Assembly: GCF_003670115.1 (NCBI RefSeq)
Contig: NZ_QQTY01000005.1
Span: 124,001 to 188,000 of the forward strand
From: Natronorubrum halophilum
Lineage (GTDB): Archaea > Halobacteriota > Halobacteria > Halobacteriales > Natrialbaceae
Direction of reading: 5' to 3'
Length of the DNA: 64,000 nucleotides
The notes beneath the pieces are model-generated. The model worked only from the letters and a program-made list of their open reading frames with translations, did no database searches and had not been told where the DNA came from. Position numbers and translations under genes: made by a program. Each line of letters begins with the position of its first letter. Position 1 is the stretch's first letter. Positions 52,414 through 57,035 of the stretch are shown piece by piece.

Positions 52414-52754
52414 GACTTCTTCCGCAATGATAGATAATCACATGACTTTAACTTTTGGAATTTTTTCACCGCGAACGGGCCGGAGTGATACGACATTAAT
52501 GTGACGGCCGTCTCCGGAAACGCGGAGTAGAGTGGGTGGACGTTTCCGTAGTAATCTGCCGTTCGATGGATCGATTATGAACATCAGCGCGCGAGAGCGT
52601 ACCCGGTTCCCGTGATCGCGGCGTCGTTCGCGGGCGATAGTGGTCGTCGAACCTCTCCCAACACGGCTACCACACCAGTACTCACAGAGGCGCGAACTCG
52701 CAAATGACGTGAGTATCCACAATCGTTATAATACCGTCAACCAGTGTTGGTATC
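52414..52754. other. Intergenic region with divergent promoters before bioB
   Basis: These 341 bp hold no gene I can support. The left part is A/T-rich (around 52433-52465) and should be the promoter of the acidic protein gene. The right part contains the bioB TATA box and the dyad described separately. Confidence 0.55.
52727..52749 (+). promoter_or_regulatory. bioB TATA box and adjacent CAAC-N4-GTTG dyad
   Basis: TATAATA (52727-52733) is centred 25 nt before the GTG start of bioB. CAAC (52738-52741) and GTTG (52746-52749) form a dyad between the TATA box and the start codon. A protein bound there would block initiation, so it may be an operator; the dyad is short and may be chance. Confidence 0.45.
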
Positions 52755-53861
52755 GTGGTTTACGAGACGAACAACGAGACGGTCGACGACGCACTCGAGC
52801 GGGTGCTGGCCGGCGAGCGACTCGATCGGACGGACGGGCTCGCGTTGCTGGCCCAGCCGGTCGAACCGCTCGCGGAGGCCGGTGCGGCCGTGCGCGATCG
52901 CTTCGGCGACGGCACGGTCGACGCCTGCTCGATCGTCAACGCGAAGGCGGGCAACTGCGCCGAGGACTGTGGCTTCTGTGCGCAGTCGGTCCACTTCGAC
53001 ACCGGCATCGACACCTACGATTTCCTCGGTCCGGAGAAGGTTCTCGAGGCCGCCAAACGCGCCGAACGCGACGGTGCCCAGCGCTTCGGGATCGTCGTCG
53101 CGGAGAAGGGCGTCTCGAAGGAGAATCGCCCCGAAGAGTGGGAAGAGGTCCTCGAGTCCGTGCGACTCGTCAGGGACGAATGCGACCTCGAGGTCGACGC
53201 CTCCCTCGGCATTCTCACCGAGGAGGAGGCCGCGATCCTCGCGGCGGAGGGAATCAACCACTACAATCACAACATCGAGACCTCGCCGAACTACTTCCCC
53301 GAGGTCGTCGGCTCCCACAGCTTCGCGGATCGAGTGAAGACCCTCGAGACCGCCAAGGCGGCCGGGATGGACCTCTGTGCCGGCGTTATCCTCGGCATGG
53401 GAGAGTCGCCGACCGACCGCGTCGACGCCGCCATCGCGTTACAGGATATCGGCATCTCCTCGCTCCCGGTCAACGTACTGAACCCGGTCGCGGGGACGCC
53501 GATGGCCGAGCGGGGCGGGAACATCACGACCGAGGAGATCGTCAAGACGGTCGCGGTGTACAAACTGCTCCACCCCGAATCGCGGGTGCGACTCACCGGC
53601 GGCCGCGAGGTCAACTTAGACCCCGACGAGCAACACCTGCCGCTCGAGGCGGGTGCGGACGGCCTCCTCACCGGCGATTACCTCACGACCGAGGGCCAGT
53701 CGCCCGGCGAGGACTTAGAGATCGTCGAACGCGCGGGGCTCGAGCCGAACCGGGAGACCAACGAGTTCGATCCCGAGGAGGTCAAGGCTCGCTACGGCGA
53801 CTCTGCGGAGTCGTCGACCGAAACGACGGCGAATACGGGCGCGGAACCGAGCGACGACTGA
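52755..53861 (+). CDS. bioB: Biotin synthase (radical SAM)
   Basis: The 368-aa protein (GTG start) inserts sulfur into dethiobiotin. The radical-SAM cluster cysteines are Cys68, Cys72 and Cys75 in GNCAEDCGFCAQS. EVDASLGILTEEEA, NHYNHNIETSPNYFPEV, and VNVLNPVAGTPM all match BioB. The C-terminus has a non-conserved acidic extension of about 20 residues. It is the first gene of bioB-X-bioF-bioD. Confidence 0.96.
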   Translation: MVYETNNETVDDALERVLAGERLDRTDGLALLAQPVEPLAEAGAAVRDRFGDGTVDACSIVNAKAGNCAEDCGFCAQSVHFDTGIDTYDFLGPEKVLEAAKRAERDGAQRFGIVVAEKGVSKENRPEEWEEVLESVRLVRDECDLEVDASLGILTEEEAAILAAEGINHYNHNIETSPNYFPEVVGSHSFADRVKTLETAKAAGMDLCAGVILGMGESPTDRVDAAIALQDIGISSLPVNVLNPVAGTPMAERGGNITTEEIVKTVAVYKLLHPESRVRLTGGREVNLDPDEQHLPLEAGADGLLTGDYLTTEGQSPGEDLEIVERAGLEPNRETNEFDPEEVKARYGDSAESSTETTANTGAEPSDD

Positions 53862-53896
53862 CGACCAGCATCCGACACGGAAGACGACACAACACA

Positions 53897-54976
53897 ATGG
53901 ACGACATAACGTTTGCAGTAGTTGGAACCGGTGGTATCGGCCGACGAACGCTCGAAGTGAGCCAGCACAAAGACGCCCTGACGCCCGTCGCGGCGTGTGA
54001 CCGACACGGCATCGCGATCGATTCCGACGGCCTCGACGTCGACGAACTGCTCGCGGCGACGGAGGGGAATATCGACAGCGAACCGCGAGACGGCGACGTT
54101 GCGACCGACGGTGGAACGGGCACAGCAACCGACGAGAGTGAAGGCGGCGTCAAACAACACGGCGAGGACAGGGGCGTCGTCGCCTCGAGTCAGGCCCGTC
54201 CCAGCGAGGATTCCATTCGGGACGTCATCGACCGCGGCGACGAGATCGACGCCGTGTTGCTCGCGTTGCCGAACTACGAACACGACTTCATCCCGCGCGT
54301 CGCCGATCGCTTCCTCGAGGGTGGCTACTCGGGAGTTATGGTCGACGTTCTCAAACGCTCGCGCGTGATCGACATGCTCGACGACCGCGGCGAGGCGTTC
54401 GAACATGCCAGGATCACCTTCATCTGCGGCGCGGGCGCGACGCCCGGGCTGTTGACCGGTGCGGCGGCGCTCGCCGCCCAGTCGTTCGTCGAGGTCACCG
54501 ACGTCGAGATCCGGTGGGGCGTCGGGCTCAAGTCCGGCTACGCGGACAACCGCGGTACCGTCCGCGAGGACATCGCCCATCTTCCCGAATACGATATCGA
54601 AACGGCTCGCGACCTCTCCGAGTCCGAGATCGAATCGATCATCGACGACCACGACGGCGTTATCGAGTTCGAGGACATGGAACACGCCGACGACGTCCTA
54701 CTCGAGCGCGCCGGCGTCTGCGACGCCGAGGACGTCAGCGTCGGCGGAATCCTCGACGTCGAGCGCGATACAAAGCCGACGACGACCACCGTCAGCGTGA
54801 CGGGGACGACGTTCGACGGCGAGACGGCGACGAACACCTTCCAACTCGGCGACGAGACGAGCATGGAGGCGAACGTCAATGGTCCGGCGCTCGGCTACCT
54901 GAAGACCGGTGTTCGTCGCAACCGCGCCGGCGAGTACGGCGTCTTCGGACCCGCTGAACTGATGCCGGGGTTCTGA
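53897..54976 (+). CDS. NAD(P)-dependent saccharopine dehydrogenase-like oxidoreductase, probable BioU-type biotin enzyme
   Basis: The 359-aa protein starts MDDITFAVVGTGGIGRRTLE, a Rossmann NAD(P) fold. A catalytic-domain segment follows (FICGAGATPGLLTGAAALAA, VEIRWGVGLKSGYADNRGTV). It lies between bioB and bioF, 35 bp after bioB, and no bioA (DAPA aminotransferase) is found in the cluster. BioU, known from cyanobacteria and reported in some haloarchaea, replaces BioA with a saccharopine-dehydrogenase-like enzyme that takes an amino group from a lysine. Lys153 in DVLKRSRVIDM, after the Rossmann part, is a candidate. Residues about 58-100 form a low-complexity acidic insertion. Family and fold are seen; the BioU role is inferred from context. 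Confidence 0.7.
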   Translation: MDDITFAVVGTGGIGRRTLEVSQHKDALTPVAACDRHGIAIDSDGLDVDELLAATEGNIDSEPRDGDVATDGGTGTATDESEGGVKQHGEDRGVVASSQARPSEDSIRDVIDRGDEIDAVLLALPNYEHDFIPRVADRFLEGGYSGVMVDVLKRSRVIDMLDDRGEAFEHARITFICGAGATPGLLTGAAALAAQSFVEVTDVEIRWGVGLKSGYADNRGTVREDIAHLPEYDIETARDLSESEIESIIDDHDGVIEFEDMEHADDVLLERAGVCDAEDVSVGGILDVERDTKPTTTTVSVTGTTFDGETATNTFQLGDETSMEANVNGPALGYLKTGVRRNRAGEYGVFGPAELMPGF

Positions 54977-55111
54977 ACCATCTGTTCTTGAGAACCACGC
55001 GGCTCCGGGTCCCGAATCGCCGTTGCGCGCGAGCGTGATCACACTCGACGGTCGCGTCACTTGTCAGCACGAGACGCGAGCCGTGTCGAATAGAACCGTG
55101 AAAGTGAAACC

Positions 55112-56344
55112 ATGGCAATGATACCGTTCACTCGAATGGAAGACCGCGGGTTCGACCTCGAGGAGCGAGTCGACGCGCTCGAGGAATCCACGCTGAAACG
55201 ATCGCTATCACCCGTCGACCGGGTCGCCGAGCGGGGTTACTTCGCCCCACCGCCGGGGAGCGAGCTACCGGTTCTCAGCGCGGACGAGGCGCTGGTGTTC
55301 GCCGCGAACAACTACCTCGGCTTGACCGACGACCAGCGGGTGCAGGACGCGGCCCGACAGGCTACCGCGACCGTCGGCACGGGTGCCGGTGCGAGCCGGC
55401 TCGTGACCGGTGATACGATGGTCCACCAGGACCTCGAACGGCTGCTCGCCGAAACGAAAGGAACCGAACGTGCGCTCTCCTTTTCGTCGGGGTACGCCGC
55501 GAACGTCGGGACGATCACGGCGCTCGAGCCGGACGTCATCTTCTCCGACGAGTACAACCACGCGAGTATCGTCGACGGCTGTCGGCTGACGGCCGCCGAA
55601 ACGGTCGTCTACGACCACTGTGATGCCACGAGCCTGCGGTCGAAGCTGGCCGCCCGAGCCGAGAGCGCGGCGGCGAGCGACGAGTCCTGGCTGATCGTCA
55701 CCGACTCCGTGTTCAGCATGGACGGCACCGTCGCGCCCCTGACCGAGATCTGCGAGGCCGCCGAGGAGTTCGGCGCGTGGCTGATGGTCGACGAAGCCCA
55801 CGCCACCGGCCTCTACGCGAACGGCGGCGGCGTCGTCCAGGCGGAGGGGCTCGAGGATCGCGTCCAGATCCAGATGGGGACCCTCTCGAAGGCGCTGGCG
55901 AGTCAGGGCGGATACGTCGCGGGCAGCGACGAACTGATCGAGTGTCTGGTAAACGACGCCCGCTCGTTCGTCTTCTCGACCGGTCTCGCGCCGCCGGCCG
56001 CCGCGGCCGCGAGCGAGGCCCTTCACATCGCCCGCCACAGCGACGTCCGAGAACGGCTCTGGCAGAACGTCGCTCACCTCCGGGACGGCCTCGAGACGAT
56101 GGGCTTTGACGTCCTCGGAGACTCCCAGATCCTCCCCGTGCTCGTCGGCGATCGAGACGACGCGGTCGCCCTCGCCGACGGACTCCGGATACGGGATATC
56201 GTCGCGCCGGCGATCCGACCGCCGACGGTGCCCGAGGGAACCAACCGAATCCGCGTCGCCCCGCTGGCCACGCACGATCAGGACGACATCGTCACCTGTC
56301 TCGAGGCGTTCAAAGACGCCGGCGAGGACGTCGGACTATTGTGA
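55112..56344 (+). CDS. bioF: 8-amino-7-oxononanoate synthase
   Basis: The 410-aa PLP enzyme condenses pimeloyl-thioester with alanine. It has FAANNYLGLTDD, LSFSSGYAANVGTI, the Asp of MVDEAHATG (227-230 region), and the PLP lysine Lys260 in GTLSKALASQGG. It could in principle be another alpha-oxoamine synthase, but the bio neighbourhood makes BioF by far the best call. It is 135 bp after the BioU-like gene and 7 bp before bioD. Confidence 0.95.
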   Translation: MAMIPFTRMEDRGFDLEERVDALEESTLKRSLSPVDRVAERGYFAPPPGSELPVLSADEALVFAANNYLGLTDDQRVQDAARQATATVGTGAGASRLVTGDTMVHQDLERLLAETKGTERALSFSSGYAANVGTITALEPDVIFSDEYNHASIVDGCRLTAAETVVYDHCDATSLRSKLAARAESAAASDESWLIVTDSVFSMDGTVAPLTEICEAAEEFGAWLMVDEAHATGLYANGGGVVQAEGLEDRVQIQMGTLSKALASQGGYVAGSDELIECLVNDARSFVFSTGLAPPAAAAASEALHIARHSDVRERLWQNVAHLRDGLETMGFDVLGDSQILPVLVGDRDDAVALADGLRIRDIVAPAIRPPTVPEGTNRIRVAPLATHDQDDIVTCLEAFKDAGEDVGLL

Positions 56345-56351
56345 ATACGTG

Positions 56352-57035
56352 ATGACCGCCCCACTCGCAATCGTCGGCACCGATACCGGCGTCGGCAAGA
56401 CCGTCGTCACCGCGGGGCTCACCCGCGACCTCCGCGAGCGAGGGTTCGACGCGCGGGCGATCAAACCCGCCCAGACCGGCTACCCGCCGGACGACGACGC
56501 GGAGTTCGTCGCCGACGCCTGTGACGACCCGGACGCCGCGACCTGTCCCCGGTACCTCGAGCCGACGCTCGCCCCGCGCGTCGCCGCGGTAGAAGCCGGC
56601 GAAGCGCTCTCCTACGACTCGATCCGCACGGCGTGTGCCGAAGCGATCGCCGAGACTGAGGTCCCGATCGTCGAGGGAATCGGCGGCCTCCGCGTTCCGC
56701 TGGCCGGCGACCGCGAAGTAATCGACCTCGTCGCCGACCTCGAGGCGACCGCGGTCGTCGTCACCCGATCGGGACTCGGCACGCTGAACCACACCGCGCT
56801 CTCGGTCGAAGCACTCGAGTCCCGCGGCGTCGATATCGCGGGACTCGTCTGCAACGAGTACGCGGGCGCGACGGTCGCCGAGCGGACCAACCCCGACGAA
56901 CTCGAGCGCATGACCGGCTACGACGTCGAGACGGTGCCGCCGCTCGAGGGCGAGACGCCGCGCGCGCTGGCTGCCGGCGTGACGGCCGCGCTCTCGGCTT
57001 CGTTTTTGGACCGACTCGTACCGGAAGAACGCTGA
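56352..57035 (+). CDS. bioD: Dethiobiotin synthetase
   Basis: The 227-aa protein carboxylates DAPA to dethiobiotin. The P-loop is GTDTGVGKT (9-17). The substrate region is KPAQTGYPPDDDAEFV, and the biotin-ring-forming segment is VEGIGGLRVPL. The ATG at 56352 lies 7 bp after the bioF stop, so both are probably in one transcript. It completes bioB-bioF-bioD. Confidence 0.95.
   Translation: MTAPLAIVGTDTGVGKTVVTAGLTRDLRERGFDARAIKPAQTGYPPDDDAEFVADACDDPDAATCPRYLEPTLAPRVAAVEAGEALSYDSIRTACAEAIAETEVPIVEGIGGLRVPLAGDREVIDLVADLEATAVVVTRSGLGTLNHTALSVEALESRGVDIAGLVCNEYAGATVAERTNPDELERMTGYDVETVPPLEGETPRALAAGVTAALSASFLDRLVPEER

Follow-up and report, generated by a model that had tools for sequence, protein, structure and literature searches.

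A biotin operon of the haloarchaeon Natronorubrum halophilum in which BioU very probably replaces BioA

The genome of the haloarchaeon Natronorubrum halophilum carries what is very probably a biotin operon under BirA control, with the gene order bioB-bioU-bioF-bioD and with BioU in place of BioA. The window analysed is a stretch of 64,000 nucleotides (NCBI RefSeq assembly GCF_003670115.1, contig NZ_QQTY01000005.1, positions 124,001 to 188,000 of the forward strand), and positions given below are those of the window unless a contig is named. An initial annotation of this DNA had proposed that a BioU-type enzyme takes over from BioA the conversion of 8-amino-7-oxononanoate (KAPA) to DAPA. This proposal is supported by homology, predicted fold, invariant catalytic residues, and operon order, and also by the co-occurrence with bioD, the absence of bioA, and a biotin operator common to bioB and bioY. 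The chemistry of BioU is already known from cyanobacteria, and what is described here is a haloarchaeal branch of BioU. No earlier report of a haloarchaeal BioU was found in the literature searched, the scope of which did not extend to the original BioU paper (Sakaki 2020).

The four genes all lie on the plus strand. The first, bioB (52755..53861), encodes biotin synthase and scores 331 bits against TIGR00433, for which the cut-off is 225 bits. It is separated by 35 bp from bioU (53897..54976), which is assigned as 8-amino-7-oxononanoate carboxylating dehydrogenase from database matches, conserved residues, and fold. After a gap of 135 bp follows bioF (55112..56344), encoding KAPA synthase, whose best match is TIGR00858 with 400 bits, slightly below the cut-off of 426 bits. 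Immediately 3' of bioF lies bioD (56352..57035), which encodes dethiobiotin synthase and scores 114 bits against TIGR00347 (cut-off 83). Open reading frames and HMM matches alike bear out the earlier description of bioB, bioF, bioD, and one extra gene on a single strand between positions 52755 and 57035.

The same order, bioB-bioU-bioF-bioD, is found in 96 of the 110 haloarchaeal loci that were retrieved, and this arrangement is not a matter of chance. The remaining 14 loci keep the order and have genes missing; several of them end at the edge of a contig or of the fetched stretch, and a few have no detected bioF or bioD in the vicinity. One genome (G230, loci L084 and L104) has two bioB-bioU copies, with no bioF or bioD detected near the second. 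When the haloarchaeal loci were examined for an extra conserved neighbour gene beside the operon, none was found; the only recurrent downstream gene encodes the replication factor C large subunit, which is present in 29 loci and on the opposite strand.

What is the extra protein of the operon? It has 359 amino acids and matches BioU from Synechocystis (Slr0355, PDB entry 6IR4) with E=5.6e-82 in a phmmer search; the match consists of two stretches that cover both domains, which amounts to full-length homology. The NCBIfam BioU model NF047886 matches the protein with E=5.1e-98 and 328 bits. This is below the 600-bit cut-off of the model, which is an annotation threshold and not a functional feature, and which was reached by no haloarchaeal genome searched.

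The fold was modelled with AlphaFold2, using an alignment that included 24 cyanobacterial relatives; the mean pLDDT is 82 and is low only at residues 60-99. This segment (54074-54193) is a variable, low-confidence linker that is found in haloarchaeal BioU and is absent from cyanobacterial BioU. The initial annotation had called for a comparison with the cyanobacterial BioU structures, and the predicted fold matches all five of them: the crystal structures 6IR4, 6ITD, and 6K36-6K38 occupy ranks 1-5 in Foldseek, with TM values of 0.83-0.84 by query and 0.91-0.92 by target for a predicted model that depends in part on cyanobacterial BioU, because its alignment contained cyanobacterial BioU rows. 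The next matches are diaminopimelate dehydrogenase-like enzymes, with TM values of about 0.5. The earlier label 'saccharopine-dehydrogenase-like' can stand as a loose description only, the nearest folds outside BioU being those of diaminopimelate and lysine dehydrogenases.

The residues known to be catalytic in cyanobacterial BioU are fully conserved. K153 of the haloarchaeal protein corresponds to K124 of Slr0355, the sacrificial lysine, and H263 corresponds to the catalytic histidine H233; neither residue varies across the aligned BioU rows, of which 109 are haloarchaeal and 81 cyanobacterial. According to the titles of the PDB entries, K124A and H233A are mutants that were crystallised with an intermediate analogue or a DAPA conjugate, and the K124 mechanism of BioU has been described (PMC12915131). 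By analogy, we infer that haloarchaeal BioU converts KAPA to DAPA in a single turnover. The epsilon-amino group of K153 would condense with KAPA, as in Synechocystis BioU, and the resulting imine would be reduced by NAD(P)H. CO2 would then carboxylate the K153-KAPA conjugate, and an NAD(P)+-dependent oxidation would free DAPA-carbamate for BioD. Since K153 would be left without its amino group, it is proposed that one BioU molecule is consumed per biotin.

Does the haloarchaeal enzyme use a different donor? The initial annotation had raised the possibility of a different lysine donor mode, for which no support was obtained, because the internal, sacrificial lysine is present in every aligned haloarchaeal sequence. 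In the alignment of haloarchaeal and cyanobacterial proteins, 77 positions are conserved across both groups and 29 are fixed differently. These 29 group-specific positions would be in keeping with an enzyme that carries out the same step with many turnovers, taking free lysine or another amine as the donor; however, the equivalents of K124 and H233 are invariant in 109 of 109 haloarchaeal sequences, and this lysine would be dispensable to an enzyme with a free-amine donor, which makes such an enzyme improbable. There is likewise only a slim chance that haloarchaeal BioU represents a separate ancient branch in which group-specific active-site residues alter the chemistry, for example towards repeated turnover or another amine donor despite the conserved lysine. 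With an identity of about 45% and 29 group-specific positions, turnover or cofactor preference could differ between the BioU enzymes of the two groups.

The whole-genome search for bioA that had been suggested at the outset was carried out with TIGR00508, at a cut-off of 405 bits, on a genome of 4.7 Mb that is 99.99% complete. Positive controls over this cut-off included Escherichia coli, Synechococcus elongatus, and Methanocaldococcus jannaschii. No match over the cut-off was found in this genome, where the best of eleven TIGR00508 matches scores 282 bits, nor was there one in any of 292 Halobacteria genomes or in the 20 BioU-bearing cyanobacterial genomes checked. Two BioU-bearing cyanobacteria contain BioA-like genes (G426:C44:59390-60658 and G433:C58:274-1545) that score 369 and 348 bits, below 405. 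A survey published in 2018 found bioF in 18, bioD in 14, and bioB in 19 of 31 Halobacteria, and bioA and bioW in none (PMC6138646).

Might one of the eleven matches nevertheless be the true DAPA synthase, as a class-III aminotransferase that has escaped recognition, leaving the operon protein with some other role such as regulation? The public name of the operon protein would fit the second part of this suggestion. The protein is called 'transcriptional regulator' in the three annotated haloarchaeal plasmid loci that were opened (L219, L220, and L221, some of them RefSeq records), where it stands between genes annotated as bioB and as 8-amino-7-oxononanoate synthase; of the seven plasmid records found, six give 'transcriptional regulator' and one has 'hypothetical protein'. 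However, a domain search found no DNA-binding domain in the operon protein, and its predicted fold is that of BioU. Moreover, for each of the eight top TIGR00508 candidates another class-III aminotransferase family gives a higher score, and neither this genome nor the 292 have a match over the bioA cut-off. An overlooked aminotransferase is thus extremely improbable. From its profile matches, the operon protein itself is not a PLP enzyme, and BioU is retained here as the enzyme of this step.

The region upstream of bioB contains a candidate BirA-type biotin operator, GTCAACC-N14-GGTTTAC (52736..52763, plus strand), that overlaps the bioB start codon. The consensus for bacterial BirA is TTGTAAACC-N14/15-GGTTTACAA. 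Haloarchaeal bioB upstream regions have in common the inverted repeat GTNAACY-N14-GGTTTAC, the right half of which overlaps the coding start, and the spacer is exactly 14 in 94 of 96 regions. Conservation of the right half-site by itself is little proof, because this half is coding; the left half is non-coding. The pattern GNNAACY-N14-GGTTTAC occurs at two sites only in the 4.7 Mb genome, at bioB and upstream of bioY (G000:C1:525322-525349, locus L227), and the genome has no occurrence of the reversed pattern. The pattern had in part been adjusted to these two sites, and other genomes provide an independent test: when 116 Halobacteria genomes were searched, each of the 30 loci retrieved lay at bioB (17) or bioY (13). 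The genome's own BirA carries an HTH_11 domain. Judged from the operator pattern, BirA probably binds at these sites, and this biotin ligase/repressor would control the operon.

A probable archaeal TATA box, CGTTATAAT (52724..52732, plus strand), can be read about 25 nt 5' of the GTG start, and a comparable AT-rich box is present in related upstream regions. The position of this putative box suggests that the bioB transcript may be leaderless.

The distribution of bioU follows that of bioD closely. Among 292 Halobacteria genomes, BioU is found in 107 and bioD in 107, with both present in 106 and one exception each way; in the genome that has BioU and no bioD match (G186), bioD sequence was detected at a contig end by tblastn. 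Fisher tests on this co-occurrence give extreme p-values, which should not be taken at face value because the genomes are related and the counts are not corrected for phylogeny. In 22 of the 292 genomes, bioB is present without BioU. In the 20 such loci examined (L119-L138), bioB is mostly solo; four have bioF nearby, and in three (L124, L131, and L133) fragments of bioU lie beside bioB. Loci without an intact bioU suggest decay of the pathway with retention of bioB, perhaps for dethiobiotin salvage, and the joint loss of bioU and bioD fits a shared pathway. One genome has two bioD genes (G227:C11:593053 and C15:587), although neither BioB nor BioU gives a match there above the thresholds applied. 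BioU was not found in viral contigs, nor was it seen in the sample searched of Halobacteriota other than haloarchaea. In a tree built from BioU sequences of haloarchaea (40) and cyanobacteria (30), the two groups separate cleanly; having no outgroup, the tree does not give the direction of transfer.

Is the pathway complete? No bioW was found in the genome of N. halophilum, and full de novo synthesis of biotin is therefore unexplained. Among haloarchaea, a 2012 paper describes Natrialba magadii as a biotin auxotroph that lacks the genes, and Natronomonas pharaonis as a prototroph in which three or more of them are present (PMC3403918). It has been considered that the operon stands outside a complete pathway and only finishes imported intermediates, for example KAPA or dethiobiotin. 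The absence of bioW, the presence of the BioY transporter, and the 22 genomes with bioB and no BioU, with their mostly solo bioB genes and occasional bioU remnants, are all compatible with such a salvage function. However, the four genes for ring assembly are intact, and bioU and bioD are retained almost one to one, so that a function restricted to imported intermediates is unlikely. It is also a question about the source of pimelate, and the role of BioU is not affected by it.

With BioU placed at this step, the bioA gap noted in the 2018 survey (PMC6138646) is filled in about one third of the Halobacteria genomes searched. An enzyme that probably consumes itself is thereby placed in archaea, and a protein family with the public name 'transcriptional regulator' is corrected. 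The operator result provides a candidate BirA regulon for haloarchaea, and the assignment of BioU draws attention to the source of pimelate in this group.

How does the haloarchaeal system compare with those already known? It resembles Synechocystis sp. PCC 6803 BioU (Slr0355) in fold, in the catalytic lysine and histidine, and in its role as a replacement for BioA, which is inferred here. It differs in sequence, with about 45% identity, and in the extra linker of about 35 residues in the haloarchaeal protein. Haloarchaeal bioU is part of a bio operon, whereas bioB, bioF, or bioD was detected at none of 80 cyanobacterial bioU loci within the flanking DNA retrieved, which reached at most 5 kb per side. 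With BioA, the SAM-dependent DAPA aminotransferase, BioU has the pathway step in common, but BioA is unrelated and PLP-dependent. The proposed regulation resembles the BirA operators and regulons of bacteria and some archaea in having GTAAACC-like half-sites, inverted and with a spacer of 14, in its position upstream of bio and bioY genes, and in a BirA with an HTH domain; it differs in that the right half-site here overlaps the bioB start codon.
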